Positions 30,667 through 60,322 of a DNA stretch of 64,000 nt are shown here, piece by piece; positions within the stretch are counted from its first letter, which is position 1; the number at the start of each line of letters is the position of its first letter. The translations under genes and the position numbers were made by a program. The notes below the pieces were generated by a model. The model had not been told where the DNA came from, did not search any database, and worked only from the letters and a program-made list of their open reading frames with translations. This DNA is from Bradyrhizobium sp. CB82. Its GTDB lineage: Bacteria; Pseudomonadota; Alphaproteobacteria; Rhizobiales; Xanthobacteraceae. The stretch lies in the NCBI RefSeq assembly GCF_029714405.1, contig NZ_CP121650.1, positions 2,981,001-3,045,000 of the forward strand, read 5' to 3'.

Positions 30667-30744
30667 TGGTCCTGAAAATCGTGCGCGCACGGTAATCTTC
30701 CTGAAAAATGGCGCCGTTTCCTGAATTTTCTTCGCAGAAGCCAA

Positions 30745-31791: not shown

Positions 31792-32103
31792 ATGGCTACC
31801 ATCGGCACCTTCACTGCATCGGACAACGGCTTCATCGGTTTCATCAAGACGCTGACGCTGAACACCAAGGCACGGTTCGTCGCATCCGAGAAGGACAACG
31901 ACAAGGCGCCCGACTACCGCATCTTCGCCGGCGTGGTCGAGTTCGGCGCGGCCTGGAAGAAGACCGCTCGCGAAACCGATCGCGAATACCTCTCTGTCAA
32001 GCTAGACGATCCGAGCTTCCCGGCCCCGATTTACGCCTCGCTGGTGAAGGTCGAAGGCGACGAGGGCTTCACCCTGATCTGGTCTCGCCGCAACGGCGAC
32101 TGA
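31792..32103 (+). CDS. DUF736 family protein
   Basis: A 103-residue protein covering the whole DUF736 domain: [20 protein letters not shown], then [10 protein letters not shown] and [17 protein letters not shown]. The start ATG follows an ACGGAGA ribosome site. DUF736 proteins are small and abundant on alphaproteobacterial plasmids and ICEs; no function is established. A strong terminator follows and a structured leader precedes, so it is a single-gene unit. Confidence 0.92.
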
Positions 32104-32578: not shown

Positions 32579-32827
32579 TTAAGCAGGAGTCGAACTCCGT
32601 CCCTTTTTTCTGTCCGGGGTGGGACGCGTTAGCAGATCGGATGCTTCAACCCCGAGAACCCGCGCAAGGCGATCCACCACATCCACGCCGGCGGAATAGC
32701 GGCATCTTTCGATCGAGCTGACATAAGTGCGATCTATTTTTGCGCGATGCGCCAACTCTTCCTGCGACAAGCCTTTTGCCTGCCGAAGCTTCCGCACATT
32801 CAGCGCCAAAACCTCTCGGACCTTCAT
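32579..32827 (-). CDS. XRE-type helix-turn-helix regulator, QseC-like
   Basis: An 82-residue protein that is almost all one Xre/Cro domain (GLSQEELAHRAKIDRTYVSS). ATG 32827 removes 22 unlikely leader residues. It diverges from the small DUF2285-like gene and is followed, in the same order as in ICEMlSymR7A, by the split activator and an excisionase. In that element QseC is a DNA-binding switch protein that controls qseM from the shared promoter region. The QseC role is inferred from size, domain and position. Confidence 0.8.
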   Translation of the reverse strand: MKVREVLALNVRKLRQAKGLSQEELAHRAKIDRTYVSSIERCRYSAGVDVVDRLARVLGVEASDLLTRPTPDRKKGRSSTPA

Positions 32828-32850
32828 AGCCGAGAAGGCAGCGCCTTGAA

Positions 32851-32929
32851 GAGTATTTCTCCACGGAGTATTCTCTACAAACGTGAGGATCAAAGCGCCT
32901 CGACGTCGCTACCCGAAGAATATTTCATC
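32851..32929. promoter_or_regulatory. Candidate operator cluster between XRE gene and antiactivator gene
   Basis: Three related motifs, GAGTATTTCTCC (32851), GAGTATTCTCTA (32866) and GAATATTTCATC (32918), lie in the divergent promoter region. Their spacing of 15 and 52 bases fits binding of a small XRE dimer to differing sites. No footprint is known. Confidence 0.5.
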
Positions 32930-33039
32930 TCTGGTATGCAGAAAACCTGTGGACCAGTGGGCAGAGCGATACGACAATGATTGAGATGCAGTCAGGATTC
33001 GCTGGATCGAAGCTTCTAGGACCATAGGAGTTTCATGCT

Positions 33040-33318
33040 GTGCCGCCGCGTAGTCCAGAAGTTGCGAATTTGGCCCCCGACGAGCCGAGGCTGACGTCCT
33101 ACGACGAGCAACATGCCGTTACGTATATGCGTCTCCTTGACGCCGATGCAGGAAACGCCGACTGGCGCGAGGTCGCGCGGATCGTCCTTCACCTCGATCC
33201 CACCCTCGAGCCGGATCGCGCTCGGCGCAGTTTCGAGAGTCATCTGGCACGTGCAAAGTGGGCCGCGCGCCATGGCTATCGTCACTTACTGCAGAAGGGG
33301 CCGAAGGACGAAAGATGA
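33040..33318 (+). CDS. DUF2285-like small protein, QseM-like antiactivator
   Basis: A 92-residue protein starting at GTG after ATAGGAG. The core SYDEQHAVTYMRLLDADAGN with WREVARIVLHLDP and SHLARAKWAARHGYRHLL is the compact DUF2285-related domain found in QseM of Mesorhizobium. QseM binds FseA and TraR and blocks ICE excision and transfer. It is divergent from the XRE gene and directly upstream of the split activator, the same arrangement as in ICEMlSymR7A. Assignment rests on recognised sequence pattern and context. Confidence 0.8.
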   Translation: MPPRSPEVANLAPDEPRLTSYDEQHAVTYMRLLDADAGNADWREVARIVLHLDPTLEPDRARRSFESHLARAKWAARHGYRHLLQKGPKDER

Positions 33319-33451
33319 ATTTCGTTTGAAATAAACGTGATTTTTTATGTCGCCGATAGCAAAGGCAGATCGGCGTGCGCGATACAACCTTAAATTGTCA
33401 CATTCGTCGTGCTGCAATTCCTTGCACTCGTAAAGTGGGGAATGAGTTACG

Positions 33452-33646
33452 ATGTCAGCCTTCGACTGGAGATCAGAGTCTGCCTATGACAGTGTCTATG
33501 GAGCAGAGACAATGGACATTGCATGGGAGTGGCTTCGCCGCGATGGCGAGTACCAGGAGGCCTATAAGGGCCTGACCGGCGCGCAGCGATCCAGCGAAGT
33601 GAGCGACGATTTCCGGCAACAATGGGGGTTGTCTTTTCGCAGCTGA
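33452..33646 (+). CDS. DUF6499-domain protein, N-terminal half of FseA-like activator
   Basis: A 64-residue open frame (AFDWRSESAYDSVYGAE, then AWEWLRRDGEYQEAYKGL) that is the DUF6499 domain. It ends in TGA 33644. The protein expected for FseA continues in the +1 frame, which is open from 33576 onward. Shifting at TTT C near 33635 gives WGLSF-AADP, the usual junction of DUF6499 to DUF2285 proteins, and a fused product of about 254 residues. In ICEMlSymR7A the same split is bridged by programmed +1 frameshifting, producing the master activator of excision. Here the mechanism is inferred. Confidence 0.8.
   Translation: MSAFDWRSESAYDSVYGAETMDIAWEWLRRDGEYQEAYKGLTGAQRSSEVSDDFRQQWGLSFRS
33632..33646 (+). 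promoter_or_regulatory. Putative +1 programmed ribosomal frameshift site
   Basis: Zero-frame codons read TCT TTT CGC AGC TGA. A Phe-tRNA on TTT can re-pair with TTC after a +1 slip, then GCA GCT GAC continues the second half. The stop codon three codons later would favour slipping. Confidence 0.6.
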
Positions 33647-34217
33647 CCCGCAAAAGCCTTTCGATCAGCAGTCAATCTTCTGGTCGCCCGAGACTCTGTC
33701 CACCGTGCTGAGACTCCGGACTGTGGTCGCGCCTTCGGATTCCAAGCGGTACAATCTCGACTTGAAGATGCTGCGCCGTGGTGAGCTTCGTCATGCGGCG
33801 GACGGATGGCATGCCATCCTGCCGCTCGGAGGCACGAATCACCGCCTGTGGCTGCAAGACCTGCCGGCGATCGGTTCGCCCATCGCTGTCGAGCTGCAAT
33901 TCGATTCCGATTTCGACGTTCGAGCGCGCGCGGCACTTCGACTTTGGTTGGCGCTCGAACGGCGCCCAACCGGGCCATCTCTTCTTGCACTTTCGGTGCA
34001 GCGACGACAGCGGCTGATCCTCGCCATGCGCGCACTGGATGGCTGGCTGGAAGGACATAGCTATCGCGACATCGCAATCGAATTGTTCGGGCGACAGCGG
34101 GTTCCCGAGCGAGGCTGGAAGACCTTCGACTTGCGCAACCGCACGATACGCTTGGTTCAAACAGGGGTGTCGATGATGCGCGGGGGCTATCGCGCGCTGC
34201 TGGGACGAGCAAAGTGA
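33639..34217 (+). CDS. DUF2285-domain protein, C-terminal half of FseA-like activator
   Basis: The frame is +1 relative to the preceding half and encodes ADPQKPFDQQSIFW through to the DUF2285 domain (RLWLQDLPAIG, then LILAMRALDGWLEGHSYRDI and a helix-turn-helix-like C-terminus ending GGYRALLGRAK). A GTG at 33705 could start a shorter independent product. Because the upstream part of the frame is conserved-looking protein sequence, expression as a frameshift fusion with the DUF6499 half is more likely. In ICEMlSymR7A the fused FseA activates the excisionase gene rdfS, which is also the next gene here. Confidence 0.8.
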   Translation, partial: AADPQKPFDQQSIFWSPETLSTVLRLRTVVAPSDSKRYNLDLKMLRRGELRHAADGWHAILPLGGTNHRLWLQDLPAIGSPIAVELQFDSDFDVRARAALRLWLALERRPTGPSLLALSVQRRQRLILAMRALDGWLEGHSYRDIAIELFGRQRVPERGWKTFDLRNRTIRLVQTGVSMMRGGYRALLGRAK

Positions 34218-34376
34218 ATTCGGTAGATCATCTTCCGAAGCGTCCCATCCGCGGCAGGGTATCGAAAATCGATCCCCTCATGTTCGGCATCCCCCTACGC
34301 AGGTCCACTCCGCCATCATGACCGTCGACGCGCGCTGCAAGTCGACAGCGCGCCAGATGATCACGGAGCCCTTCAA

Positions 34377-34655
34377 ATGTCCGATCCGAACGCCGGCTTG
34401 CCGCCGCGATACCTGCGCACGCCCGAAGCCGCGCGATTTCTCGGCCTATCCGGCCGCACCTTGGAGAAGCATCGCACCTACGGCACGGGCCCCACCTACC
34501 GCAAGCTCGGCGGTCGTGTCGTCTATGCGGTCGATGACCTAAAGGCGTGGGTCGATCGTGGCGCCAAGACGTCAACCAGCGATCCCGGAGGCGGCGGGGT
34601 GTTGCCCGCAAAGCGGCACGTCCCCATTCCCTATGCGGGCAAAGAGCGGCGCTGA
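34377..34655 (+). CDS. rdfS: RdfS-like excisionase / recombination directionality factor
   Basis: A 92-residue MerR/AlpA-type winged helix protein: PPRYLRTPEAARFLGLSGRT, then RKLGGRVVYAVDDLKAWVDR. The basic tail has Gly-rich and Lys/Arg-rich stretches. It follows the FseA-like activator and precedes repA by three bases. In ICEMlSymR7A RdfS drives excision and its promoter is activated by FseA. The identity is inferred from domain and position. Confidence 0.78.
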   Translation: MSDPNAGLPPRYLRTPEAARFLGLSGRTLEKHRTYGTGPTYRKLGGRVVYAVDDLKAWVDRGAKTSTSDPGGGGVLPAKRHVPIPYAGKERR

Positions 34656-34658
34656 TCC

Positions 34659-35555
34659 ATGTCTGACAGCAAATCATCTGCACACCGCCGTCGCTCCGAG
34701 CGCGATCAACTCGATCTATTCCGTGCGCTTCCCGGCGATCTTGCGCCGCGCGACGCACAGGACCTGATGGCTTATCCGTTCTTTTCGTTGGCGAAGTCCA
34801 AGCGGATCATGCCGATCGATTTCCACGTGGGAACGATCTCGATTCGTGTCGAAGCCGTGCCAGAACACGGCATGGCGACAATCTGGGATGCCGACGTCCT
34901 GATCTGGGCTGCTTCGCAGATTGTCGAAGCACGCGATGCCGGGCCGAAGACGTCCAGGCTGATGGCCGCAACGCCCTACGAGATCCTGACGTTCGTCGGC
35001 CGTGGCACCAGCGTGCGTGATTACGACCGCCTCAAGGCTGCGCTCGACCGGCTGCAGTCGACCACTGTAATGACATCAATCCGCCAGCCGACGGAACGCC
35101 GGCGGCATCGTTTCTCCTGGATCAATGAATGGAAAGAAACGGCAGACTTGCACGGCCAGCCCCGCGGGCTGGAGCTCATTCTGCCAGATTGGTTCTACAC
35201 CGGCGTCCTGAACGAAGCCCTCGTCCTTACTATCGACCGCGCGTATTTCGACCTCACGGGCGGGTTGGAGCGGTGGCTCTATCGCCTCGTGCGCAAGCAC
35301 GGTGGCCGCCAGGAAGGCGCCTCGAGCTTCGATATCGTGCACCTTCATGCGAAGTCCGGCAGCTTGTCGCCGCTCAAACATTTTGCGTACGACCTGCGCC
35401 AGATCGTTCGTTGCCAAACGCTGCCCGGTTACCAACTGGTCATCACGTGCGATCCAAGCGGCAGCGAGCGACTCAACTTTGCGCCCGCCCTCATCGATCC
35501 CTTTGCAGCACCACCGCGTGAGCGAGCCGTCCGTGAGCCGGGGGATAAGCTGTGA
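34659..35555 (+). CDS. repA: Replication initiator protein A (RepA/RPA family)
   Basis: A 298-residue initiator with the family pattern DLMAYPFFSLAKSKR, MATIWDADVLIWAASQIV and GRGTSVRDYDRLKAALDRL. It is coupled to the rdfS-like gene. Iteron-like repeats start nine bases after its stop, which fits an origin bound by the protein. Its presence suggests the excised circle can replicate, at least briefly. Confidence 0.88.
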   Translation: MSDSKSSAHRRRSERDQLDLFRALPGDLAPRDAQDLMAYPFFSLAKSKRIMPIDFHVGTISIRVEAVPEHGMATIWDADVLIWAASQIVEARDAGPKTSRLMAATPYEILTFVGRGTSVRDYDRLKAALDRLQSTTVMTSIRQPTERRRHRFSWINEWKETADLHGQPRGLELILPDWFYTGVLNEALVLTIDRAYFDLTGGLERWLYRLVRKHGGRQEGASSFDIVHLHAKSGSLSPLKHFAYDLRQIVRCQTLPGYQLVITCDPSGSERLNFAPALIDPFAAPPRERAVREPGDKL

Positions 35556-35996: not shown

Positions 35997-36461
35997 ATGA
36001 ATGACGTCACGACCGTCGAGCTTATGTGGGTCGAAAAGCGGATCGAAAACCGGATCCGGTTCGGCCATCCAGTTCGCGAACAGATCGTTGATCGTCATCG
36101 GCGCGTCCTCTCATTCGTACCCGGCAGCATGTTCGCGTTCGTCCGTTGGACCTCCAACGACTTCGGTACAGTGCTCTCACGCGTCGATATTCTGCGCGCG
36201 GCGGAGCCTGGTCGACGCTACTCGACTGTCCCTTGGGTCAGTCCCGGCGGCGAGAGCCTGCTGCGATTGTCCGGCTGGCCGAAGGTCGAGCGCGTCCTGC
36301 AGCTCATCGACGCCGTCGAGGCGCTCGGAATCGATCCGGCTGACGTCGCTCCCGACTATTGGCATCACGTGCACAACCGTCTCTCCGTCAACGAGACGCC
36401 AAGAGGCTACACCCGCGCCCGTCACCAGGCGTGGCTGCATCGGCGGAGGGTAGGGTCATGA
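35997..36461 (+). CDS. DUF2840 family protein
   Basis: A 154-residue basic protein: TTVELMWVEKRIENRIRFG, then SMFAFVRWTSNDFGT and SGWPKVERVLQLIDAVEALG. No membrane segment is visible. The family is found almost only in rhizobial-type conjugative elements, always beside the TraF peptidase gene, with which it overlaps by four bases here. Function unknown, probably transfer-related. Confidence 0.82.
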   Translation: MNDVTTVELMWVEKRIENRIRFGHPVREQIVDRHRRVLSFVPGSMFAFVRWTSNDFGTVLSRVDILRAAEPGRRYSTVPWVSPGGESLLRLSGWPKVERVLQLIDAVEALGIDPADVAPDYWHHVHNRLSVNETPRGYTRARHQAWLHRRRVGS

Positions 36462-36967
36462 CCAACCGAATGTGCACCATCGCCATGAGTCTTGGAGCTC
36501 TAGCCCTTGTGCTCGCTACGATCGACGAGACTCCTCCTTCCTACATCTGGAACGTCTCAGAGAGCGTTCCGCTCGGTCTGTATCGTTTGCAACCCGCCAA
36601 GCAACTAACGGTCACTGAGCTCGTGGCAATTCAAACGCCGGAGCCGCTTGCGAGCTTTCTCGACTGGAACGGCTATCTGCCGACCGGCGTGCCCATGCTC
36701 AAGCGAGTCCTGGCATTGCCGGGACAGACCGTCTGCAGGAGCGGGCTCACAATCACGGTCGATAGCATCGAGATGGGGCAAGCCCGCGAACGCGATAGCC
36801 GCGGCCGGCCATTGCCAAGCTGGCAGGGGTGCCGCGTTATCGACGCCGGCGAGATCTTCGTCATGAATTGGCAGTCGGTCGACTCAATGGACGGTCGGTA
36901 TTTCGGGCCCATCCCCGCATCTGCGGTCATTGGCCATGCGCTTCCGATCTGGACCAAGGAGGAGTGA
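36458..36967 (+). CDS. traF: S26 family signal peptidase, conjugative transfer protein TraF
   Basis: A 169-residue membrane-anchored peptidase. An N-terminal helix (MSLGALALVLATI) is followed by the Ser motif SESVPLGLYRL and the Lys motif PMLKRVLALPGQTV, which form the catalytic dyad. A conserved acidic end motif DGRYFGPIP is present. TraF matures the TrbC pilin by cutting and cyclising it. ATG 36458 overlaps the DUF2840 stop. Confidence 0.88.
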   Translation: MTNRMCTIAMSLGALALVLATIDETPPSYIWNVSESVPLGLYRLQPAKQLTVTELVAIQTPEPLASFLDWNGYLPTGVPMLKRVLALPGQTVCRSGLTITVDSIEMGQARERDSRGRPLPSWQGCRVIDAGEIFVMNWQSVDSMDGRYFGPIPASAVIGHALPIWTKEE

Positions 36968-37270: not shown

Positions 37271-37864
37271 GTGACCGAGGCATCTCGCCGGTTTGCGATC
37301 CCGGAACACTGGATCCGCACCGTGATGAAAGTCGAAAGTGGCGGCAATGCGCAGGCGATATCGCCTCGGGGTGCGCTTGGCTTGATGCAGATCATGCCAG
37401 AGACCTGGGTCGAACTCAGCGTTCGCTACGAGTTCAGCTCCGATCCTTTTGATCCCCGTGAGAACATTTTGGCAGGGACGGCCTACCTACGCGAGATGCT
37501 CGACCGCTTCGGCTTAGAAGGGTTCCTTGCTGCCTACAACGCAGGCCCGGGCCGCTACGAGCAGCTCTTGGCAACAGGCCGTCGGCTGCCCGAAGAGACG
37601 TTGGTCTACGTCCGAACGATCCAATCGGAGATTGGAATCGAGCGCGGGCAATCCGGAGCTCCGCTTACCGTGCCCGCTGCTTCTCGGTTGCGAGACGCGC
37701 CCTCGGTGGGGCCGTCGACGAGTTCTTCCGCTGGCAATCGCTCGGCAACGATTGCACGACAGATTGGTCGCTCCGGGGAGATGCCCAACGCGGATGTGTC
37801 TGCGTTGATACCTCGTGCGACTGGCCTGTTTGTGCAGTTTTCAAGCGCGGGATCATCAAGATGA
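37271..37864 (+). CDS. Lytic transglycosylase catalytic domain protein
   Basis: A 197-residue reading from GTG. The SLT domain has its catalytic Glu in VMKVESGG, then SPRGALGLMQIMPETW and AYNAGPG. As it stands the protein lacks a signal or anchor, because the hydrophobic N-terminus lies in another frame upstream; coding-like sequence (APSPEILPVAPYAPF) extends above the GTG. In conjugation it opens peptidoglycan for the transfer channel. The exported form is probably lost unless the frames are rejoined. Confidence 0.8.
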   Translation: MTEASRRFAIPEHWIRTVMKVESGGNAQAISPRGALGLMQIMPETWVELSVRYEFSSDPFDPRENILAGTAYLREMLDRFGLEGFLAAYNAGPGRYEQLLATGRRLPEETLVYVRTIQSEIGIERGQSGAPLTVPAASRLRDAPSVGPSTSSSAGNRSATIARQIGRSGEMPNADVSALIPRATGLFVQFSSAGSSR

Positions 37865-38111
37865 TCGCACTCGCGCTCTGTCGGAGGTTGTCGAATGTTT
37901 TCGTACGTTCGGCAGTTGGATGGAGGACGTAGGGGATGGCCGACCGGGGATGGCAAGGGAAAAGGCCGGCCGTCGGTCCGGCCTATGTGGTTGGTTGGGT
38001 TCGAGGATTTGGTCATGCCGGCGGTGCCCTCTGCCGGCGCTTTTCGCAATTCATCGAACGAAATCAACCTTTCTCGCGCCAGACACCTACGCCAGGGCAA
38101 GGTTTCGTGTC

Positions 38112-39863
38112 GTGACGGCGCGCGACGACGACCTGCGCATTCGCCCCGGACGCATCCACCACGGCAACCGTGGGGCTAAGCGGCCCCAGACCTTCGTCGG
38201 TGAGGTGATGCGGTCCGCGAAGAAGGCGGGACACGTCGGCAACAGTTTCCGACCAAGCCAGGTGCGCAGCCGCTCTCAGTTCGGTCGTGGCCGACGCGCG
38301 GCGGTCTCGATCCGCCTGCGCTCGAATGCACGGCGCGTGGTGACGAAAGCACGCGTCGTGCGTCACAAGGGCTCGCGCTTTCGATCGGCGCCGCTGCCCA
38401 AGCACCTCGCGTATCTCAAGCGCGATGGCGTCACACGCGATGGCGAAGACCCCCGTATGTTTGACGCGGCCTCCGATGCGGCAGACGAGCGTGCCTTCGC
38501 CGAGCGCTGCGAAGATGATCGCCATCATTTCCGGTTCATCATTTCCCCGGAGGACGGGGCGGCGCTCGGTGACCTCAAAGCGTTCACGCGCGAGCTGATG
38601 CGCGACGTCGACAAAGATCTCGGAACCAGGCTCGACTGGATCGCGGTAGATCACTGGAATACGGACAACCCGCATGTCCACGTCCTCATCCGCGGGCGTG
38701 CTGACGACGGTCAGGACCTCGTGATCAGTCGCGAGTATATCAGCCGGGGCTTCCGTGATCGGGCGGCCGACCGAGTTACGCTCGAGCTGGGGCCGCGCAG
38801 CGAGCACGAGATTCGCACGAGCCTCGAACGAGAGGTGGATGCGGAGCGCTGGACCAGCCTCGACCGGGCGCTACGCGACGTCTCCGACGCGTCCGGCGGC
38901 GTAGCAGACCTTAGGCCGAGCCAAGATGTCAGAGATCCCGAACTACGCCGGCTCTTGATCGGCAGGGCCGCCAAGCTTGAGCGCCTCGGCCTGGCAGAGC
39001 CTGCCGGCCCCGCCTGTTGGACCCTGAAACCTGGTCTTGAACAGACACTTCGCCAGCTAGGCATGCGCGGTGACATCATCAAGACGATGCACCAGGCCTT
39101 GAGTGGTAACGGTCGCGAGCCAGACGTCGGCACCTTTGCCCTGCACGGCGAAGCGCCCAGCGATCCGATTCTCGGCCGCCTTGTCCAACGCGGGCTCGAC
39201 GATGAGCTTAAGGGGACCGCTTACGCGATCGTCGCCGGCATCGACGGACGCACGCACCACCTGCGCTTTGGCGATATCGACATGACCGGCGATGCGCCCG
39301 CCGGCGCCATCGTCGAGGCGCGCGTCTATGATGATGCGAATGGACGCCGGCGGGTATCGCTCGCCATCCGCTCGGATCTGTCCATCGAAGAGCAGGTGGC
39401 GGCGAACGGCAGCACCTGGCTCGATCGCCAGCTCCTTACCAAGGATCCGCCGCTCAGTCGCGCCGGTTTTGGTGCCGAGGTGCGGGAAGCAATGGAAGCG
39501 CGCACCGATCATCTCGTGGAGCAGGGGCTGGCCCGCCGGCAGGGACCGCGCGTGGTGTTCGCACGCGACTTGCTCGCGACGTTGCGGCGTCGGGAGTTGC
39601 AGGAGGCCGGAGCCAAGCTTGGGGCCGAAACGGGGCTTGACCACCGTTTGACTGCTGAGGGCGATTCTATTTCGGGCATCTACAGGCAACGAGTGACCCT
39701 CGCCTCGGGGCGCTTTGCCATGATCGATGATGGGCTCGGTTTTCAACTCGTGCCGTGGCGGCCAGCCCTGGAGCAGCATCTTGGAAAGCAGGTGACCGGC
39801 GTCATGATGCCAGGCGGCAGGATCGATTGGGATTTTGGTCGTAAGCGCGGACTAGGCCTCTAG
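38112..39863 (+). CDS. rlxS: Relaxase with DUF3363 domain (RlxS-type)
   Basis: A 583-residue relaxase from GTG 38112 (TARDDDLRIRPGRI). The HUH nuclease region shows HHFRFIISPEDG, then DWIAVDHWNTDNPHVHVLIR with the paired His ligands. A DUF3363 region fills the C-terminal half. Longer upstream readings look non-coding. The protein should nick oriT and pilot the strand. It is followed by traG, as in the R7A-type elements. Confidence 0.87.
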   Translation: MTARDDDLRIRPGRIHHGNRGAKRPQTFVGEVMRSAKKAGHVGNSFRPSQVRSRSQFGRGRRAAVSIRLRSNARRVVTKARVVRHKGSRFRSAPLPKHLAYLKRDGVTRDGEDPRMFDAASDAADERAFAERCEDDRHHFRFIISPEDGAALGDLKAFTRELMRDVDKDLGTRLDWIAVDHWNTDNPHVHVLIRGRADDGQDLVISREYISRGFRDRAADRVTLELGPRSEHEIRTSLEREVDAERWTSLDRALRDVSDASGGVADLRPSQDVRDPELRRLLIGRAAKLERLGLAEPAGPACWTLKPGLEQTLRQLGMRGDIIKTMHQALSGNGREPDVGTFALHGEAPSDPILGRLVQRGLDDELKGTAYAIVAGIDGRTHHLRFGDIDMTGDAPAGAIVEARVYDDANGRRRVSLAIRSDLSIEEQVAANGSTWLDRQLLTKDPPLSRAGFGAEVREAMEARTDHLVEQGLARRQGPRVVFARDLLATLRRRELQEAGAKLGAETGLDHRLTAEGDSISGIYRQRVTLASGRFAMIDDGLGFQLVPWRPALEQHLGKQVTGVMMPGGRIDWDFGRKRGLGL

Positions 39864-39974: not shown

Positions 39975-41975
39975 ATGTCGACGACCAAAGTGCTTTGGGG
40001 CCAGATCACGCTTGTCCTTGCCATCGTGCTCATCACCACGTGGGCAGCGACGCAATGGGTTGCCTGGAGGCTCGGATTTCAGCCGCGACTTGGGTCCCCC
40101 TGGTTTGAGCTCGGCATGCCCATCTACCTTCCGCCCGCCTTCTTCTGGTGGTGGTACGCATACGATGCCTACGCCCCAAGAATCTTCGCCGAGGGGGCCT
40201 GCATCGCGGCGTCCGGCGGAGTGATCTCGATCATTGTCGCCTTCGGAATGTCGATCTGGCGCGCGAAGGAGGCGCAGACCGCAGCCACCTTTGGTTCGGC
40301 CCGATGGGCGCTGCAGAATGAAATCCGTAGCGCGCAGCTCTTGGGTCCAGACGGCGTCGTGCTCGGCCGGTTTGATCGCAACTACCTTCGACATGATGGA
40401 CCCGAGCACGTCCTCTGCTTCGCACCGACGCGGTCGGGCAAGGGCGTCGGCCTTGTGGTGCCGACGCTTCTGACATGGCCGGGCAGTTGCATTGTCCATG
40501 ACATCAAGGGCGAGAATTGGCATCTGACCTCCGGCTTCCGCGCCCGCCATGGAAAGGTGCTGCTGTTTGATCCCACCAACCGCAACTCGGCGGCCTACAA
40601 TCCCCTCCTGGAGGTCCGTCGCGGCGAGTGGGAAGTTCGGGACGTCCAAAACATCGCCGACGTGTTGGTCGATCCGGAAGGTGCCTTGGAACGGCGTAGC
40701 CATTGGGAGAAGACCAGTCATTCCCTGCTGGTCGGCGCGATCCTGCACGTCCTCTACGCCGAGCAGGACAAGACCCTGGCTGGCGTCGCAAAATTCCTGT
40801 CGGATCCCAAGCGCCCGATTGAGGCGACCTTGCGCGCGATGATGTCGGCGGCCCATCTTGGCGATGCCGGCGTTCATCCGGTGATCGCCTCCGCGGCTCG
40901 CGAGCTCCTGAACAAGAGCGAAAACGAACGCTCTGGCGTGCTTTCCACCGCGATGTCGTTTCTTGGGCTCTACCGCGATCCGGTTGTGGCGCAGGTCACG
41001 CGCCACAGCGACTGGCGGATCCGCGACCTGGTGGAGGCAGACCTGCCGACCACGCTCTATCTGGTGGTGCCACCCTCCGACATCAGCCGGACCAAGCCGC
41101 TGGTACGACTGATCCTCAATCAGATCGGCCGTCGCTTGACGGAAGATTTGAATGCCAAGGGGCGCCAGCATCGTGTGCTCTTGATGCTCGACGAGTTTCC
41201 GGCCCTTGGTAGGTTGGATTTCTTCGAGTCCGCACTCGCGTTCATGGCGGGCTACGGGCTCAAGAGCTTCTTGATCGCCCAGTCCCTCAACCAGATCGAG
41301 AAGGCCTATGGCCCGAACAATTCGATCCTGGACAACTGCCATGTTCGCGTGTCCTTCGCCACCAATGACGAACGGACCGCGCGGCGCGTGTCAGAGGCGC
41401 TGGGAACCGCGACCGAATTGCGCGCCATGAAGAACTATGCCGGACACAGGCTAAGCCCCTGGCTCGGTCACCTCATGGTGTCGCGGCAGGAGACGGCACG
41501 TCCGCTTCTGACGCCTGGCGAGGTGATGCAATTACCACCGGACGATGAATTGGTTCTGATTTCAGGGTGCCCCCCGATCCGCGCGAAGAAGGCGCGCTAT
41601 TACGAAGACCCGCGGTTTCGGGAGCGGGTGCTTCCGCCAGCCTCGTCAAGTGGGGTGGAGACCCATGTTCGGCCTCCAAAGGATGACTGGAGCAAATTGC
41701 CCCTGGCGGTCACCCCGCGCGACACGCAGAAGCCAAAGGTTCAAGAACAGCAAACTGGATCCATCGACGATCCCACCAATGGTGGCATCAGGCGGGAGCC
41801 GGAGCTTCCCGTGCATGAAGACGTGGTGCCAGAGCGGACTCCCGTGAAGACCGAGTTCGAATTCACCGATGAGGATTCCGATGATGACATCCAGCGTGCA
41901 GGTGAACTGCGCCGGGCGGTGGCAGGCGTAGCCCGCCAGGCGGCGATGGATCCCGATGATGGCCTTGATCTCTAA
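39975..41975 (+). CDS. traG: Conjugal transfer coupling protein TraG (VirD4 family)
   Basis: A 666-residue type IV coupling protein. Two N-terminal membrane helices (to about residue 90) precede the ATPase. Walker A is APTRSGKGVG near 151 and Walker B is VLLMLDEFPALG near 400. It is full length. It links the relaxase-DNA complex to the Trb channel. The next gene starts seven bases downstream. Confidence 0.94.
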   Translation: MSTTKVLWGQITLVLAIVLITTWAATQWVAWRLGFQPRLGSPWFELGMPIYLPPAFFWWWYAYDAYAPRIFAEGACIAASGGVISIIVAFGMSIWRAKEAQTAATFGSARWALQNEIRSAQLLGPDGVVLGRFDRNYLRHDGPEHVLCFAPTRSGKGVGLVVPTLLTWPGSCIVHDIKGENWHLTSGFRARHGKVLLFDPTNRNSAAYNPLLEVRRGEWEVRDVQNIADVLVDPEGALERRSHWEKTSHSLLVGAILHVLYAEQDKTLAGVAKFLSDPKRPIEATLRAMMSAAHLGDAGVHPVIASAARELLNKSENERSGVLSTAMSFLGLYRDPVVAQVTRHSDWRIRDLVEADLPTTLYLVVPPSDISRTKPLVRLILNQIGRRLTEDLNAKGRQHRVLLMLDEFPALGRLDFFESALAFMAGYGLKSFLIAQSLNQIEKAYGPNNSILDNCHVRVSFATNDERTARRVSEALGTATELRAMKNYAGHRLSPWLGHLMVSRQETARPLLTPGEVMQLPPDDELVLISGCPPIRAKKARYYEDPRFRERVLPPASSSGVETHVRPPKDDWSKLPLAVTPRDTQKPKVQEQQTGSIDDPTNGGIRREPELPVHEDVVPERTPVKTEFEFTDEDSDDDIQRAGELRRAVAGVARQAAMDPDDGLDL

Positions 41976-44745: not shown

Positions 44746-45714
44746 GTGCCAATCCATTCTCTTCAGTCAGAGGCGATCTCGCGTGGGGCACGCATGCTGC
44801 GTACGGCGCTTGGCCCCGCCATCGCACGCTTTCTGGAAGACCCGTCAATTGTTGAAGTGATGCTCAACCCCGATGGCCGGTTGTGGATCGACCGGTTATC
44901 AAACGGCCTCATCGATACCGGCGAGAGCCTGTCCGCTTCCGACGGGGAGCGCATCGTCCGGTTGGTTGCCCATCATGTTGGTCATGAGGTCCACGCTGGC
45001 GCGCCGCGCGTGTCGGCCGAGTTGCCCGAGACGGGTGAACGCTTCGAAGGCTTGCTGCCGCCGGTCGTCGCCGCTCCAGCATTCGCGATCCGCAAACCCG
45101 CGATCGCCGTGTTCTCGCTTGATGACTACGTCGCGGCGGGGATCATGGCCTCCGATCAGGCCGATGCGCTACGCGGCGCCGTCACCGCTCGCAAGAACAT
45201 CTTGGTCGCCGGGGGCACCTCGACCGGCAAGACGACGCTGACGAACGCGCTGCTTGCGGAAGTCGCCAAGACTGCAGACCGCGTCGTCCTCATCGAAGAT
45301 ACCCGAGAGCTTCAGTGCAAGGCGCCGAACCTCGTCGCCTTGCGTACGCGGGATAATGTGATCTCGCTCTCCGATCTCGTGCGCTCGTCGCTGCGGCTGC
45401 GGCCTGACCGCATTCCGATCGGCGAAGTCCGCGGGGCAGAAGCGCTCGATCTTCTCAAAGCCTGGGGGACCGGGCACCCCGGCGGTATCGGCACCATCCA
45501 TGCCGGCACGGCGCTCGGTGCATTACGCCGGCTCGAGCAGCTCATCCAGGAAGCCGTCGTCACGGTCCCCCGCGCTCTCATCTCCGAAACCATCAACGTC
45601 ATCGCCGTGCTCGTCGGCCGTGGTGCCGATCGCCGGCTTGCAGAACTGGCCCGTGTAACCGGGCTCGGACCCGCCGGCGACTACAGCCTTTCACCAATGG
45701 GAGACCAGCTATGA
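44746..45714 (+). CDS. trbB: P-type conjugative transfer ATPase TrbB
   Basis: A 322-residue VirB11-type hexameric ATPase starting at GTG. Walker A is [11 protein letters not shown] near residue 155, the Asp box [11 protein letters not shown] near 185, and the [20 protein letters not shown] region near 245. It powers pilus assembly and substrate transfer. It begins the trbBCDEJKLFGI operon and overlaps trbC by four bases. Confidence 0.94.
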
Positions 45715-46037
45715 ATTGTCGTTTGTTTTGCGGAAGGATCATCCTTTCGGTCGGAGCATTCACCGGGTACTGCCTGATTGCCGGCCCCGCGTGGGCCGCA
45801 GGCTCCAACATGCCGTGGGAGCAGCCCCTCAACCAGATCCTGCAATCGGTCGAAGGTCCCGTCGCCAAGATCATCGCCGTCATCATCATCATCGTGACAG
45901 GCTTGTCGCTCGCCTTCGGCGACACATCGGGCGGTTTCCGCCGGCTGGTCCAGATTGTCTTCGGCCTGTCAATCGCCTTTGCCGCCTCGAGCTTCTTCCT
46001 GTCCTTCTTCTCATTTGGCGGCGGTGTGGTGATCTGA
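45711..46037 (+). CDS. trbC: TrbC/VirB2 family pilin precursor
   Basis: A 108-residue prepilin. The signal sequence ends near WAAGSNMPWEQ, and two membrane helices (IIAVIIIIVTGLSLAFG and IVFGLSIAFAASSFFLSFF) form the pilin hairpin. It is the expected substrate of the TraF peptidase encoded upstream. Stop and next start share TGATG. Confidence 0.9.
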   Translation: MNCRLFCGRIILSVGAFTGYCLIAGPAWAAGSNMPWEQPLNQILQSVEGPVAKIIAVIIIIVTGLSLAFGDTSGGFRRLVQIVFGLSIAFAASSFFLSFFSFGGGVVI

Positions 46038-46300
46038 TGGAAGGGCAGATCACAGGCTTTGTTGCGCCCGTGCATCGGGCCCTGACCGAACCGATCCTGA
46101 TGGGCGGTGCGCCGCGATCGGTTGCCATCCTCAACAGCACCTTGGCCGCGGCGCTTGGCCTCGGTCTGCGCCTTTGGTTGGCAGGTCTTCTCCTCTGGTT
46201 CGTCGGCCACATGGTCGCCGTCTGGGCCACCAAACGCGATCCCGCCTTCGTCGAGGTCGTGCGCCGACACGTCCGCATCCCCGGTCACCTCAGCCTGTGA
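46037..46300 (+). CDS. trbD: Conjugal transfer protein TrbD (VirB3-like)
   Basis: An 87-residue membrane protein (FVAPVHRALTEPILMGGAPR, then LGLGLRLWLAGLLLWFVGHM). Size, sequence and position between trbC and trbE identify it. VirB3-like proteins dock the VirB4-type ATPase at the membrane. A longer overlapping frame upstream is a shadow of trbC. Confidence 0.9.
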   Translation: MEGQITGFVAPVHRALTEPILMGGAPRSVAILNSTLAAALGLGLRLWLAGLLLWFVGHMVAVWATKRDPAFVEVVRRHVRIPGHLSL

Positions 46301-46307
46301 GTCCTCC

Positions 46308-48749
46308 ATGATGAACCTTGCCGAATACCGACGCTCAATGACGCGTCTGGCGGACTTTCTTCCGTGGGCTGCGCTGGTTGATGAGGGAATTGTCCTCAAC
46401 AAGGACGGTTCGTTCCAGCGGACCGCAAAATTTCGGGGACCAGATCTCGACAGCGCAGTGCCGGCCGAACTCGTCGCGGTCGCTGGTCGTCTGAACAATG
46501 CGCTTCGCCGCCTTGGATCTGGATGGGCCATCTTTGTCGAGGCACAGCGGCACTCCGCGGGCGCCTACCCGCAGAGCACATTTCCCGACGTTGCATCTGC
46601 CCTGGTCGACGCGGAGCGGAGAGCCCAGTTCGAGGAATCAGGCAGCCACTATGACTCGAGCTACTACCTGACGTTCCTCTACCTCCCGCCAGAGGAGGGT
46701 GCCGCGATGGCAGAACGGTTGCTCTACGAGAATAGCAGCCGCACCGTCGACGCTGATGCACGGGAGGTCCTGAGTGGGTTTATCGACCGGACCAACCGCG
46801 TAATCCAGCTCATCGAAGGATTTATGCCGGAATGCGCCTGGCTCGATGATGAGGCGACGCTGACCTACCTGCACTCGACCGTTTCGACCAGGCGGCATCG
46901 GATACGCGTGCCAGAGATCCCCATGTATCTCGATGCGCTGCTCGCCGATCAGCCCCTGACCGGTGGTCTTGAGCCGACGCTGGGCGAAGCCCACGTGCGC
47001 GTTCTGACGGTCGTGGGATTCCCGACGGCGACCACGCCGGGAATCCTCGACGATCTCAACCGTCTTGCCTTTCCGTACCGCTGGTCGACCCGGGCGATCA
47101 TGCTCGACAAAACGGATGCCACAAAGCTTCTCACCAAGAGTCGTCGCCAATGGTTCGCCAAACGGAAGTCGATCGGCGCGATCCTGAAGGAGGTGATGAC
47201 CAACGAGGCGTCCAGCCTTCTCGACACGGATGCGCACAACAAGGCCATCGATGCCGACGCCGCGCTTCAGGAACTGGGGACGGATCAGATCGGCGAGGCT
47301 TTTGTCACCGCGACGGTCACCGTCTGGGATCGAGACGCCCGTGCCGCCGACGAAAAACTGCGTCTCGTCGAGAAGGTGATTCAGGGACGTGATTTCACCT
47401 GCATGATTGAGACGGTGAATGCTGTCGAGGCCTGGCTCGGCAGCCTGCCGGGACACGTCTATGCCAACGTCCGTCAGCCTCCCATCTCGACCTTGAACCT
47501 GGCGCATATGATTCCGCTTTCGGCGGTATGGGCGGGAGAGGCGAGGGACCATCACTTCAAGGCACCGACTCTGTTCTTTGCCAAGACGGAAGGGTCGACC
47601 CCGTTTCGGTTCTCCCTCCACATCGGCGATGTCGGACACACGCTGGTTGTTGGCCCGACCGGCGCCGGCAAGTCGGTGCTCCTGGCGCTGATGGCCTTGC
47701 AGTTCCGCCGCTATCCGGAGTCCCAGATCTTCGCGTTCGATTTCGGCGGATCGATCCGGGCGGCCGCGATCGCCATGGGGGGCGACTGGCATGATCTTGG
47801 CGGCGCGGTTGCAGGAGAAGTGTCCGAGTATGTTTCGCTCCAGCCTTTCGCTGCGATCGACGATCCCGCAGAACGTGGGTGGGCTGCCGAGTGGATCGCC
47901 TCGATCCTGACCCGCGAACGGATCGAGGTCACACCCGAGGTCAAGGATCATGTCTGGTCGGCCCTGACGTCGCTGGCCTCAGCACCCCTTCCGGAACGGA
48001 CTCTCACCGGCCTTTCCGTCCTCTTGCAGTCGAATCCTTTGAAGCGAGCGCTCCAACCTTATTGCCTGGGCGGTCCCTACGATCGGTTGCTTGATGCCGA
48101 AAGTGAGCGACTGGGCGAGGCCTCGGTTCAAGTCTTCGAAACTGACGGTTTGATCGGTACATCGGTCGCGCCGGCCGTCCTGTCATACCTGTTTCACCGG
48201 ATCGAGGACCGATTCGATGGTCGGCCGACCCTCCTCATCATCGATGAGGGTTGGCTTGCGCTCGATGACGCGGACTTTGCGGGAAAGCTTCGCGAGTGGT
48301 TGAAGACACTGCGCAAAAAGAACGCTTCCGTCATTTTCGCAACCCAATCGCTGGCGGACATCGACGGCTCGGGAATTGCACCCGCCATCATCGAGAGCTG
48401 TCCGACCCGGATCCTGCTCCCCAACGATCGCGCCATCGAGCCACAGATCACGGCGATCTATCGCCGCTTTGGGCTGAACGACCGTCAGATCGAGATTCTC
48501 GCCCGCGCGATACCGAAGCGGGACTACTACTGCCAGTCGCGTCGCGGCAACCGCCTGTTTGAACTTGGCCTCGGTGAGATCGCCCTGGCGTTCACTGCTG
48601 CCTCCTCGAAAGCCGACCAGGCGCTGATCGAGAAGGTGCTGGTCGAAGAGGGCGGCGAGAACTTTGTGCCCGGTTGGCTGCAGGCCAGGAATATCGGCTG
48701 GGCTTGTGATCTCATCCCACACCTCGCTAACCTGGAGCTTTCCTCATGA
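46308..48749 (+). CDS. trbE: Conjugal transfer ATPase TrbE (VirB4 family)
   Basis: An 813-residue AAA+ ATPase. Walker A is GPTGAGKSVLL near residue 448; Walker B is LLIIDEGWLAL near 643; the C-terminal CPTRILLPNDRA motif is typical. ATG 46308 (or 46311) gives the family N-terminus MNLAEYRRSMTRLADFLPW. It is intact and drives pilus biogenesis. It overlaps trbJ by four bases. Confidence 0.94.
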   Translation: MMNLAEYRRSMTRLADFLPWAALVDEGIVLNKDGSFQRTAKFRGPDLDSAVPAELVAVAGRLNNALRRLGSGWAIFVEAQRHSAGAYPQSTFPDVASALVDAERRAQFEESGSHYDSSYYLTFLYLPPEEGAAMAERLLYENSSRTVDADAREVLSGFIDRTNRVIQLIEGFMPECAWLDDEATLTYLHSTVSTRRHRIRVPEIPMYLDALLADQPLTGGLEPTLGEAHVRVLTVVGFPTATTPGILDDLNRLAFPYRWSTRAIMLDKTDATKLLTKSRRQWFAKRKSIGAILKEVMTNEASSLLDTDAHNKAIDADAALQELGTDQIGEAFVTATVTVWDRDARAADEKLRLVEKVIQGRDFTCMIETVNAVEAWLGSLPGHVYANVRQPPISTLNLAHMIPLSAVWAGEARDHHFKAPTLFFAKTEGSTPFRFSLHIGDVGHTLVVGPTGAGKSVLLALMALQFRRYPESQIFAFDFGGSIRAAAIAMGGDWHDLGGAVAGEVSEYVSLQPFAAIDDPAERGWAAEWIASILTRERIEVTPEVKDHVWSALTSLASAPLPERTLTGLSVLLQSNPLKRALQPYCLGGPYDRLLDAESERLGEASVQVFETDGLIGTSVAPAVLSYLFHRIEDRFDGRPTLLIIDEGWLALDDADFAGKLREWLKTLRKKNASVIFATQSLADIDGSGIAPAIIESCPTRILLPNDRAIEPQITAIYRRFGLNDRQIEILARAIPKRDYYCQSRRGNRLFELGLGEIALAFTAASSKADQALIEKVLVEEGGENFVPGWLQARNIGWACDLIPHLANLELSS

Positions 48750-49480
48750 GTCTCCTCCGTCGTGTCGTGGCGGCAGGCGCCATCGCGATCGCTCTTGCCG
48801 GCAACCCCAAGCCGTCGTCGGCGCAATGGATCGTATTCGATCCCAACAATTACGCGCAGAACGTGCTGACCGCCGCGCGCGCCTTGCAGCAGATCAACAA
48901 CCAGATCACGTCACTGCAAAATCAGGCGCAGATGCTGATCAACCAGGCGAAGAACCTGGCGGCCCTGCCGTTCTCGTCGTTGTTACAGCTCGAGCAGTCG
49001 ATCCAGCGTACCCAGCAGTTGCTCGGACAAGCTCAGCGCATTGCCTACGACATCCAGCAGATCGATCGAGCGTTCTCGACGACCTATGCGCCGGCGTCGT
49101 CAAGTTCTTCGGACCGGGCCCTCGTGGCCAATGCACAAGCACGCTGGCAGAACGCCGTCGCGGGCCTGTAGGACGCGATGCGGATGCAGGCCACCGTTGT
49201 CGGCAATCTCGACACCAGCCGAACCCAAATGTCGGCGCTCGTGATCGCGAGCCAAGGCGCGACTGGCGCACTCCAGGCAAGTCAGGCCGGTAACCAACTC
49301 CTCGGATTGCAGGCCCAGCAGCTCGCTGATCTCTCCGCCGTCGTTGCCGCACAGGGACGAGCTCAGAGCTTGGAGTCCGCGCAGCGCGCCGTTGCACAAG
49401 ACCAGAGCAGGGAGCAACTGCGCCGGTTTCTAACGCCGGGGCAAGGCTACCAACCCGCAACCGTGCAGATGTTTCACTGA
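48746..49480 (+). pseudogene. trbJ: trbJ (VirB5-like), interrupted by an in-frame amber codon
   Basis: The first 141 residues (signal peptide, then QWIVFDPNNYAQNVLTAARA and a long helical region) end at TAG 49169-49171. The same frame continues without a gap: DAMRMQATVVGNLDTSRTQM to ATVQMFH. Family members have Gln at this point, so one CAG-to-TAG change explains it. The uninterrupted protein would have 244 residues. An ATG at 49178 could restart a product without signal. VirB5-like proteins sit at the pilus tip and are normally required. Confidence 0.88.
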
Positions 49481-49851
49481 TGATGGACACAATTATCCGC
49501 ATACGGCTCGTGGGAGCCGCACTGCTTCTTGCCGCAGCTGTCGGCGCCTGTGCAATCCAACTGCGCAGCGGCGAAGATGAGGCCGCGGCTCCCACATCGA
49601 CAAGCCAGGAAACCGATCCTCTCGCATCCAAGCTCGCGCAGTGCCGTACCGTCAACTACGAGCAGAGAGATGATTTCATCGAATGTCGCAAGATCTGGGC
49701 AGAGAAGCGGCGTCAATTCCTGAGCCAGAGGAAGGAGGCTGTGCGACAAAGCGGCGACGGCGCGTCGTCTAGCGGGTCGATAGTGAAGGACGAAAGCCGC
49801 TTACCTTCTGGCTACCCCTTCCCGCGGACGCCCGGAGGGAACGAGCGATGA
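49480..49851 (+). CDS. trbK: Putative entry-exclusion protein TrbK
   Basis: A 123-residue small exported protein with one N-terminal helix (VGAALLLAAAVGACAIQL) ending in a possible lipobox Cys. The conserved-type middle part is LAQCRTVNYEQRDDFIECRKIW. It lies between trbJ and trbL, as trbK does in related operons, and overlaps both neighbours by one to four bases. TrbK prevents mating between cells that both carry the element. Confidence 0.8.
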   Translation: MMDTIIRIRLVGAALLLAAAVGACAIQLRSGEDEAAAPTSTSQETDPLASKLAQCRTVNYEQRDDFIECRKIWAEKRRQFLSQRKEAVRQSGDGASSSGSIVKDESRLPSGYPFPRTPGGNER

Positions 49852-51065
49852 ACAACACCGGTGTCATCGACCAGTTCCTGGAAACCTTCACCCGCTACAT
49901 CGACTCCGGATTTGGGCTCCTCGGGGGTGAGGTTGCCTATCTCGCGACCACGCTCGCCGCGATCGACATCGTGCTTGCCGGGCTGTTCTGGTCCTGGGGC
50001 GGCGATGAGGACATCGTCGCTCGCCTCGTCAAGAAGACCCTGTTCGTTGGCGTCTTTGCTTATCTCATCGGCAACTGGAACAGCCTCGCCCGGATCGTGT
50101 TCGAGAGCTTTGCGGGCCTCGGCCTGAAAGCCTCCGGTACGAGCCTTTCGTCAGCGGACTTCTTGCGTCCCGGCCGGATTGCGCAGGTCGGCCTCGACGC
50201 CGGACGGCCCATCCTCGAATCCATCTCCGGCCTGATGGGCTATGTCAGCTTCTTCGAGAATTTTGTCCAGATCGTCCTTCTGTTGTTCGCCTGGATCGTC
50301 GTCCTGCTCGCGTTTTTCATCCTGGCGATCCAGCTCTTCGTCACCCTGATCGAGTTCAAGCTGACGACGCTGGCAGGCTTCGTACTGATTCCCTTCGGCC
50401 TGTTCGGGAAAACCGCTTTCGCCACGGAACGGGTGCTCGGCAACGTGATGTCTTCCGGCGTCAAGGTCCTGGTCCTGGCCGTGATCGTCGGCATTGGCTC
50501 GACGCTTTTTGCGCAGTTCACGGCGGGATTCGGTGGCAACCAGCCGACCATTGAGAATGCGATGGCGATGGTGTTGGGAGCGCTCTCACTGCTTGGTCTC
50601 GGCATCTTCGGGCCCGGTATCGCCAACGGGATCGTTTCCGGTGGACCACAACTCGGCGCAGGTAGCGCCGTCGGCACCGGCTTGGCGGCCGGTGGCGTGG
50701 CTGCGGCCGGAGCCGCGCTCGCAGCCGGTGGCGCCGCTCTGGCCGGAAGTGCCGTCGGTGGAGGCAGCGCCATTGCGGGCGCCACCTCGAGCGCCTTCCG
50801 AGCAGGAGGTCTGTCCGGCGCCACAGAAGCAACTATGTCGGCCCCAGCTAGCCCCCTGCGCTCTGCTGCCGTCGAATCCGGTGGATCGAGCGGCAGCACG
50901 CATGGTGGCGCTACCGCGTCGTCCGAGAGAGCGCCCGCCTGGGTTCGCCGCATGAAACGGACGCAGACTCTCAGTCATGGGGCCGCAAGCGCGACACAGG
51001 CGGTCCGCGCAGGCGATCACGGCGGGGGAGGCGCCTCCGTCGATCTCTCACAGGGCGAGAGCTAA
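49848..51065 (+). CDS. trbL: P-type conjugative transfer protein TrbL (VirB6-like)
   Basis: A 405-residue polytopic membrane protein: a soluble start, then about six helices (residues 30-265), with ELKLTTLAGFVLIPFGLFGKT-like family core near 170. The last 130 residues are rich in Ala, Gly and Ser, with low complexity, a usual feature of this family. It forms part of the inner-membrane channel. Confidence 0.92.
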   Translation: MNNTGVIDQFLETFTRYIDSGFGLLGGEVAYLATTLAAIDIVLAGLFWSWGGDEDIVARLVKKTLFVGVFAYLIGNWNSLARIVFESFAGLGLKASGTSLSSADFLRPGRIAQVGLDAGRPILESISGLMGYVSFFENFVQIVLLLFAWIVVLLAFFILAIQLFVTLIEFKLTTLAGFVLIPFGLFGKTAFATERVLGNVMSSGVKVLVLAVIVGIGSTLFAQFTAGFGGNQPTIENAMAMVLGALSLLGLGIFGPGIANGIVSGGPQLGAGSAVGTGLAAGGVAAAGAALAAGGAALAGSAVGGGSAIAGATSSAFRAGGLSGATEATMSAPASPLRSAAVESGGSSGSTHGGATASSERAPAWVRRMKRTQTLSHGAASATQAVRAGDHGGGGASVDLSQGES

Positions 51066-51115
51066 TGCCTGTGATCACCCATCTGCCGTTCCCATTCATT
51101 TCCTGAGGTCAAAGC

Positions 51116-51796
51116 ATGTTCAAACGATCGGCGATCCACTATGGCCGCACGCCTGCTCCGGTCACGCCCTATCAACGAGCAGCCCAGGTCTGGGATGACC
51201 GCATCGGCTCGGCACGCGTCCAGGCCAAAAACTGGCGTCTGATGGCATTCGGCTGTCTGTTCTTATGCGCGGGCTTCGCCGCTGCGCTTGTTTGGGAGTC
51301 AGCACAGGGCACCATCACCCCGTGGGTAGTCGAGGTCGATCATCTGGGTGAGGTGAGAGCCCTCGCACCCGCAGATTCCTCTTACCAACCCAATGATCCT
51401 CAGATTGCCTTCCACCTCGCCCGGTTCATCGAACATGTTCGCGGCCTTCCCATGGACGCGATCGTGCTGCGCCAGGATTGGCTCCGCGCCTACGACTTCA
51501 CGACGGACCGGGGCGCTGCCGCCCTCAATGACTATGCGCGCAACAACGATCCCTTCGCCAAGGTTGGGAAGACGCAGGTTACGGTCGAGGTTTCCAGCGT
51601 CATCAGGGCCTCACCCGAAAGCTTCCGTTTAGCCTGGATCGAACGGCGTTACGAAAACGGCCAGATTGCCGCCACCGAGCGCTGGAGCGCGATCCTCACC
51701 ATCGTCTTGGAGCCGCCCCGCGACATCGATCGGCTGCGCAAGAATCCCCTCGGCATCTACGTCAACGCCATCAATTGGTCGAAGGAGCTGGGATAA
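51116..51796 (+). CDS. trbF: Conjugal transfer protein TrbF (VirB8-like)
   Basis: A 226-residue bitopic membrane protein. A short cytoplasmic start (TPYQRAAQVWDDRIGSA) precedes one helix (MAFGCLFLCAGFAAALVW) and a periplasmic NTF2-like VirB8 domain. It nucleates assembly of the channel. The next gene starts two bases after its stop. Confidence 0.92.
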   Translation: MFKRSAIHYGRTPAPVTPYQRAAQVWDDRIGSARVQAKNWRLMAFGCLFLCAGFAAALVWESAQGTITPWVVEVDHLGEVRALAPADSSYQPNDPQIAFHLARFIEHVRGLPMDAIVLRQDWLRAYDFTTDRGAAALNDYARNNDPFAKVGKTQVTVEVSSVIRASPESFRLAWIERRYENGQIAATERWSAILTIVLEPPRDIDRLRKNPLGIYVNAINWSKELG

Positions 51797-51798
51797 GC

Positions 51799-60279: not shown

Positions 60280-60322
60280 TCGCCATCCCGCCAAGCTGGG
60301 GAATTTTGCGGCGCCACTTCTG

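Follow-up and report, generated by a model that had tools for sequence, protein, structure and literature searches.

The stretch of 64,000 nt analyzed here (hereafter, the window) carries an fseA gene that is split over two reading frames and that, judging from the sequence, very probably belongs to a conjugative element of the ICEMlSymR7A type in a Bradyrhizobium-like genome, its two halves being joined by a +1 slip of the ribosome. The frame starting at ATG 33452 (frame 0) encodes the DUF6499 domain, in which the AWEFLRRN-like motif of the FseA family is present as AWEWLRRD. It runs into ...CAA TGG GGG TTG TCT TTT CGC AGC TGA and terminates at TGA 33644-33646, where a preliminary description of this DNA had placed its end. 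The DUF2285 domain was recognized, also as described there, in the +1 frame, and both Pfam matches lie above their cut-offs (Table 1). The +1 frame had been taken as open from 33576; however, a TGA is located at 33600-33602 and the frame opens only at 33603, 36 nt before position 33639. When TTTC (33635-33638) is read as a single Phe, WGLSF is joined to AADP with no residue missing, as had been proposed, and the resulting protein (...WGLSF-AADPQ...) comprises exactly 254 residues and ends at TGA 34215-34217.

Table 1. Position, strand and supporting evidence of the features annotated in the window.
Feature	Position	Strand	Evidence
Fic-domain protein, 530 aa, left of the transfer module	29152-30744	-	
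DUF736 protein, left neighbour of the module	31792..32103	+	PF05284 117.8 bits
XRE-type regulator, QseC-like, divergent from qseM	32579..32893	-	HTH_3 PF01381 51.3 bits; name from position and family only
QseM-like antiactivator, lone DUF2285	33040..33318	+	67 bits, E 1.5e-17 to 7uqt (QseM); PF10074 32.6 bits
Inverted repeat GCCGAT-N11-ATCGGC upstream of fseA, operator-like	33352..33374	.	Sequence
Promoter-like block CAACC ... GCTGCAAT before fseA	33385..33418	+	Conserved in an alignment of 17 chosen loci
fseA 5' half in frame 0; DUF6499 (motif AWEWLRRD), 64 aa if unshifted	33452..33646	+	PF20109 62.5 bits (Pfam cut-off 23.8)
Shine-Dalgarno-like TGGGGGTTGTCT upstream of the slip codon	33623..33634	+	Anti-SD pairing -9.6
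Slip site TTT-C; tRNA-Phe would move UUU to UUC, next codon GCA 33639	33635..33638	+	Conserved slip codon
fseA 3' half, +1 frame: middle domain and DUF2285 (coding part 33639-34217)	33603..34217	+	PF10074 100.8 bits (Pfam cut-off 26.4); pN/pS 0.16
FseA box (candidate): ATCGAA 34261-34266 and TTCGGC 34283-34288, 16 bp apart, 28 bp in all	34257..34293	.	Pattern
RdfS-like recombination directionality factor	34377..34655	+	44.5 bits, E 2.2e-10 to 8dgl RdfS; HTH_17
Replication initiator protein A family	34659..35555	+	PF10134 288.3 bits
DUF2840 protein	35997..36461	+	PF11000 236.5 bits
TraF-like signal peptidase	36392..36967	+	PF10502 90 bits; TIGR02771 89 bits, below cut-off 100.25
Lytic transglycosylase	37271..37864	+	PF01464 88.2 bits
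RlxS-type relaxase	37815..39863	+	NF041267 595.6 bits, below cut-off 850; PF11843 316.6 bits
TraG/VirD4 coupling protein	39975..41975	+	NF010450 1216.5 bits, cut-off 674
MFS-transporter-like ORF between traG and trb genes	43136-44404		PF07690 116.3 bits
trb-type mating-pair genes: T2SSE-type ATPase (TrbB-like), CagE/TrbE, TrbL, VirB8-like, CagX/TrbG, TrbI	44746..53972	+	Pfam
IS21-type transposase and helper genes, DDE transposase remnant, right end	56500-64000		

In the mechanism that we propose, translation would start at 33452 and, at UCU-UUU-CGC, most ribosomes would keep the frame and stop two codons further on, which would yield a DUF6499 peptide of 64 residues. A minority would slip by +1, with tRNA-Phe re-pairing from UUU to UUC (33636-33638), and would continue at GCA to produce the complete FseA of 254 residues. 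Binding of this protein to the FseA box (34261-34288) would activate rdfS and, behind it, the transfer genes; QseM, the product of the neighbouring upstream gene, would block FseA through binding to DUF6499. We infer the occurrence of the slip, its frequency and the function of the protein, with the minority share and the functions assigned by analogy to published work on R7A.

With the window fseA, the published family of transfer activators expressed by recoding gains a further member that is well supported; it does not represent a new kind of system. The R7A gene is reported to require a low-frequency +1 shift, FseA-like genes with a conserved +1 site are described from alpha-, beta- and gamma-proteobacteria, and approximately 61% of 4709 FseA homologues are stated to need the shift (PMC10359603). 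The likeness to ICEMlSymR7A drawn in the preliminary description is correct, and the conservation of the +1 site is already in print. In Azorhizobium caulinodans, the shift is said to be absent (PMC9601964), and the literature passages matching FseA, ribosomal frameshifting and Bradyrhizobium concern Mesorhizobium and Azorhizobium elements.

The conservation of the split was analyzed by searching for DUF6499 in two sets, namely 100 relatives including the window's own genome, of which 51 gave a match, and 398 genomes from the phylum, of which 43 did. In total, 157 loci were examined, among them that of the window and its two paralogues. L163, which contains a second copy, was entered as a single locus, and ten further DUF6499 rows, most of them weak or partial, were left out (G039:C61, G058:C25, G007:C70, G028:C153 and G057:C222 among the relatives; G450, G481, G295:C130, G468:C10 and G444:C2:991935 in the phylum set). 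DUF2285 was located in the +1 frame in 104 of the 157 loci and in the same frame as DUF6499 in 44, with other frame relations in 3 and 1 loci and no DUF2285 match in the remaining 5. A majority of one-frame homologues, named beforehand as the result contrary to a conserved mechanism, was therefore not observed. Nevertheless, one-frame versions do exist, both here and in 12 of the 120 homologues listed in a protein search (see below), which counts against a programmed slip and indicates that the split is not obligatory.

The frame break and the slip site were compared across the homologues, as the preliminary description had suggested, and a site of the WGxxF type could be read in 100 of the 104 split loci (L063, L083, L086 and L148 were dropped). 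Its slip codon was TTT in 93 cases, TGT in 7 and TTC in none, compared to 218 TTT and 501 TTC among the other Phe codons of the same genes; the Fisher value for TTT at the slip against the other Phe codons (8.8e-44) is an overstatement, since the loci are related. When only distinct slip contexts were considered (n = 71), TTT was found in 68 and TGT in 3. The base following the slip codon was C in 84 sites and T in 16, and a frame-0 stop stood two codons past the slip in 67 of the 100. We also performed an independent pattern search in 391 genomes of the family, in which TTT or TTC was allowed and TGA was required at its place. It gave 132 places in 96 genomes, and 3 places were obtained with the reversed control pattern. 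TTT was present in all 110 places of the TGGGG type; the other 22 (13 TTT, 9 TTC) look largely like chance matches. The same split, with a TTT CGC site, was observed in two Mesorhizobium and one Bradyrhizobium plasmid records, and in line with the Bradyrhizobium setting first assumed, every named relative from the genome scan belonged to Bradyrhizobium (9 of 9 loci). Genes of this kind are split or cut short by annotation, and a rule for detecting them would be UUU followed by C or U, and never UUC.

An ordinary frameshift mutation that has left the gene dead is an extremely unlikely explanation of the break. Some decay is seen nearby, as the approximately 93% identical paralogue has a nonsense codon, and in some relatives the frames are related differently or broken again (L049, L074, L116 and L161; L086). 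Against this stand the +1 relation common to 104 of 157 loci, a slip codon that is kept as a nucleotide string, TTT and never TTC, and the purifying selection acting on both halves, with a frame switch at the slip; a conserved mechanism rather than a mutation, as first suggested, is thus supported.

Indeed, selection changes frame at the slip and both halves are under purifying selection. In six window-like loci, pN/pS over the 20 codons past the slip was 0.16 in the +1 frame vs. 4.37 and 1.55 in the others, while before the slip the lowest value was that of frame 0 (0.65 vs. 1.09 and 1.36); these values are sums over pairs and not independent. In 16 hand-chosen pairs, the first half gave dN/dS values of 0.07-0.21 and the second half values of 0.12-0.43. 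Between the window and its own paralogue it amounted to 0.21 and 0.25, respectively, the latter covering 122 codons, up to the TGA of the paralogue.

These values also bear on whether the halves are made separately, with DUF6499 starting at 33452 and DUF2285 at an internal codon such as GTG 33705, to act as two chains or in a QseM-like manner. Although GTG 33705 opens an ORF of 170 aa and three named plasmid records list the halves as separate genes, we consider such an arrangement very unlikely. That GTG, 66 nt beyond the slip, is the first ATG, GTG or TTG of the +1 frame past 33603 (a CTG is found at 33696), so that the conserved residues right after 33639 are without an ordinary start of their own; there is no such codon between 33603 and 33704, yet pN/pS is 0.16 over 20 codons. 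Moreover, one-frame relatives hold both domains joined in the register of the slip. When the 254-residue protein was used as query, 475 homologues were obtained; among the 120 that were listed, both domains were present in one frame in 12, which are 51-56% identical to the window FseA. All 12 read WGFLF-AADP compared to WGLSF-AADP in the window, with no residue gained or lost, and their register therefore equals that predicted by the slip.

The WGFLFAADP proteins are of metagenome origin (P0007, P0009, P0011-P0015, P0017-P0019, P0023 and P0026). A coding pattern for WGFLFAADP was detected in 0 of the 391 family genomes, and hence these one-frame relatives are known only as metagenome proteins.

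Seven genomes of the same genus, with three contexts, showed TGT-C in place of TTT-C (L040, L053, L054, L055, L057, L059 and L064). The sequence before the slip codon is TGG AGG TTR in this clade, and elsewhere in the genes of all 100 loci Cys is encoded by TGC 97 times and by TGT 51 times. By the pairing rules, the Cys tRNA cannot re-pair from UGU to GUC, which counts against a re-pairing slip. Four pairs of the clade gave dN/dS values of 0.07-0.15 for the first half and 0.16-0.20 for the second, and just past the slip pN/pS was 0.27 in the +1 frame vs. 1.56 and 1.44 in the others (four loci), so that purifying selection is seen on both halves as well as on the junction. In L059, the +1 frame is free of ATG, GTG, TTG and CTG over the 69 nt on either side of the site; in-frame start codons are present upstream in L040, L057 and L064. 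To judge from these sequences, the junction seems to be still crossed without the usual re-pairing, and another route may be in use. A tentative and rather doubtful explanation would be that no P-site re-pairing is needed and that the weak U-G wobble of UUU or UGU, together with the upstream GGAGGU, lets the next tRNA enter one base late. If so, the UUU-C of the window would be one of a wider class of wobble-driven +1 sites. Natural variants such as the UGU sites, the in-frame L080 (see below) and the one-frame WGFLF relatives provide ready tests of the shift and of its loss.

Possible stimulators of the slip were also analyzed. In the window, pairing of the 12 bases before the slip codon with the anti-SD was -9.6 compared to a synonymous mean of -5.71, the fraction as good being 0.037; GGG represents 15% of the Gly codons in 12 ORFs of the window. 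Across the family, an SD-like signal at p ≤ 0.1 was observed in 33 of 71 distinct sites, which counts against this element, and no such signal was present in the third fseA copy of the genome; a universal SD-like stimulator was consequently rejected. A downstream stimulatory RNA structure was rejected as well, with a mean z of -0.01 vs. shuffles for the 60 nt past the slip in 71 distinct sites, and Rfam gave nothing at gathering scores within 32500-34700. In prfB, which encodes release factor 2, the +1 slip takes place at a stop codon after an SD-like stretch with a short spacer. The window fseA differs from prfB in that the sense codon CGC comes next, the spacer is longer and the SD-like part is not always present in the family.

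With regard to the regulatory genes around fseA, the product of the lone DUF2285 gene has a YMRLLDA stretch in common with 7uqt (QseM), and among the 89 split loci with an upstream lone DUF2285, 71 also show an upstream, divergently oriented ORF similar to the XRE-type regulator. The circuit resembles that of ICEMlSymR7A FseA (msi172-msi171, Mesorhizobium japonicum R7A), with DUF6499 and DUF2285 in two frames bridged by +1 programmed frameshifting, UGGGGG beside the slip, a box of hexamers spaced by 16 bp before rdfS and the antiactivator QseM (PMC10359603), as well as the adjacent HTH regulator QseC (PMC8627217). This is in contrast with the position of the gene: in R7A, fseA follows traI2 and is under TraR control (PMC5882170), whereas in the window it lies between qseM and rdfS and has its own conserved promoter-like block.

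The candidate FseA box (34261-34288), between fseA and rdfS, is the sole match to GGG..CGAA..TTCG..CCC in the 64 kb. Its geometry equals that of the published FseA box, described as two hexamers with 16 bp between them and centres 22 bp apart (28 bp; PMC10359603), and it likewise stands ahead of an RdfS homologue. The strict form that was tested (CGAA-N15/16-TTCG, 600-1050 nt past the DUF6499 start) was found in 38 of 108 split loci, where shuffling predicts 0.8, and in 13 of 44 one-frame loci, where it predicts 0.5, most loci therefore being without it.

Of the 7 Autoind_bind matches (LuxR-type autoinducer domain) in the genome, even the nearest lies more than 1.9 Mb from fseA, and TraR-type quorum-sensing control was accordingly not recognized here. 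Hence, the upstream trigger seems to differ from that of ICEMlSymR7A. Places to look for it are the CAACC...GCTGCAAT block and the inverted repeat at 33352-33374, a possible binding site of the trigger. Comparable repeats of other sequence were seen by eye near the same place in some relatives, e.g., GCATCAC-GTGATGC in the OWN3 type. For rhizobia, these observations are relevant to how the transfer of genes might be restrained where quorum sensing is absent.

The role of the slip may go beyond a fixed low dose of FseA. As suggested in PMC10359603, it could serve mainly as a ribosome pause at WGL-x-F that lets QseM seize the new DUF6499, a proposal that refines the programmed slip, is compatible with it and seems to us possible, though on balance improbable. 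In its favour, a lone DUF2285 gene was found in tandem upstream of 86 of the 104 split loci vs. 2 of the 44 one-frame loci; of these two exceptions, one (L080) is a secondary fusion within the split clade and the other (L163) is preceded by a second FseA. On the other hand, the SD-like element is absent from many sites, four genomes among the 18 tandem-less split loci (G168, G292, G422 and G376) have no lone DUF2285 genome-wide by Pfam, and for the most part split loci and one-frame loci form clades of their own. In a tree of the DUF2285 part, the state changed at least 7 times, with only 2 changes forced by well-supported branches. A causal link between the split and qseM, despite strong raw counts, was therefore not upheld once descent was considered, the independent-pairs test having only 2 pairs on well-supported branches. 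The association, confounded by descent, is a lead that is in line with the pause idea of PMC10359603. In the passages on FseA in the literature, neither the UGU clade nor the qseM count was met, and we make no claim that they are unpublished.

Lone DUF2285 genes were also sought beyond the tandem position. In 17 genomes, mostly with tandem-less split loci, an adjoining lone DUF2285 in the other orientation was present in G336, G188 and G282, and among 20 chosen one-frame-only genomes Pfam detected a lone DUF2285 in 5, two of them below the cut-off. Absences of this kind are weak, since Pfam also misses the lone DUF2285 of G021, which was found by our own profile (L040). A shared qseM-fseA transcript as the cause of the split is weakened by the conserved promoter-like block between the two genes. 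In L080, the fseA of the split clade is now in one frame, apparently via an indel before the slip site, and qseM is still in place, which would make this locus a natural test of an always-on FseA.

The structure model of FseA was only fair (pLDDT 70.9). Its sole Foldseek match at E < 0.001 was RovC of Yersinia (6xz5; probability 0.99), with which it has in common, by name, the DNA-binding family PF10074. The two differ in structure (TM-score of 0.23, which is poor), in sequence, the match being weak (E 0.084), and in that RovC activates a type VI secretion system (PMC10359603).

The gene set of the ICEMlSymR7A type (rdfS, traF, rlxS, trb and fseA) is present in the window, with TraF and RlxS below the NCBIfam cut-offs. 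The Bradyrhizobium guangdongense plasmid NZ_CP030052.1 has the DUF736 gene at the same position and is similarly arranged (DUF736, HTH, lone DUF2285, DUF6499, DUF2285, HTH at the RdfS position, RepA, DUF2840 and S26 peptidase), also with a TTT CGC site. It differs in an extra HTH gene upstream, in a protein that is 47.6% identical and in the sequence of the site, TGG GGC ATC TGC TTT, which is without GGGGG. An integrase match was not obtained in the window, but 3.3 kb beyond it a tyrosine integrase is present as two adjoining pieces that lie in different frames (G000:C1:3048266-3048728), perhaps the broken integrase of the element. The borders of the element were not found, and no tRNA was detected in the window or in the flanking stretches fetched (L110 and L111). 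The element may be decaying, as suggested by an integrase present only in pieces, the transposases at the right end and the nonsense codon of the paralogue.

Three DUF6499-DUF2285 pairs with an adjoining lone DUF2285 are present in the genome, in the window and at 6.82 Mb and 8.35 Mb of C1. The window fseA would thus add a clear example of +1 recoding at a sense codon, from a genome in which the circuit occurs three times and one copy is interrupted by a nonsense codon. The second fseA-qseM copy (G000:C1:6822562-6823703) is approximately 93% identical to the window at the DNA level in the two longest matched stretches and looks broken because of an internal TGA in its DUF2285 frame. The third copy (G000:C1:8352445-8353599) is of the WGLCF type, with the site TGG GGC CTC TGC TTT CGC and without GGGGG.
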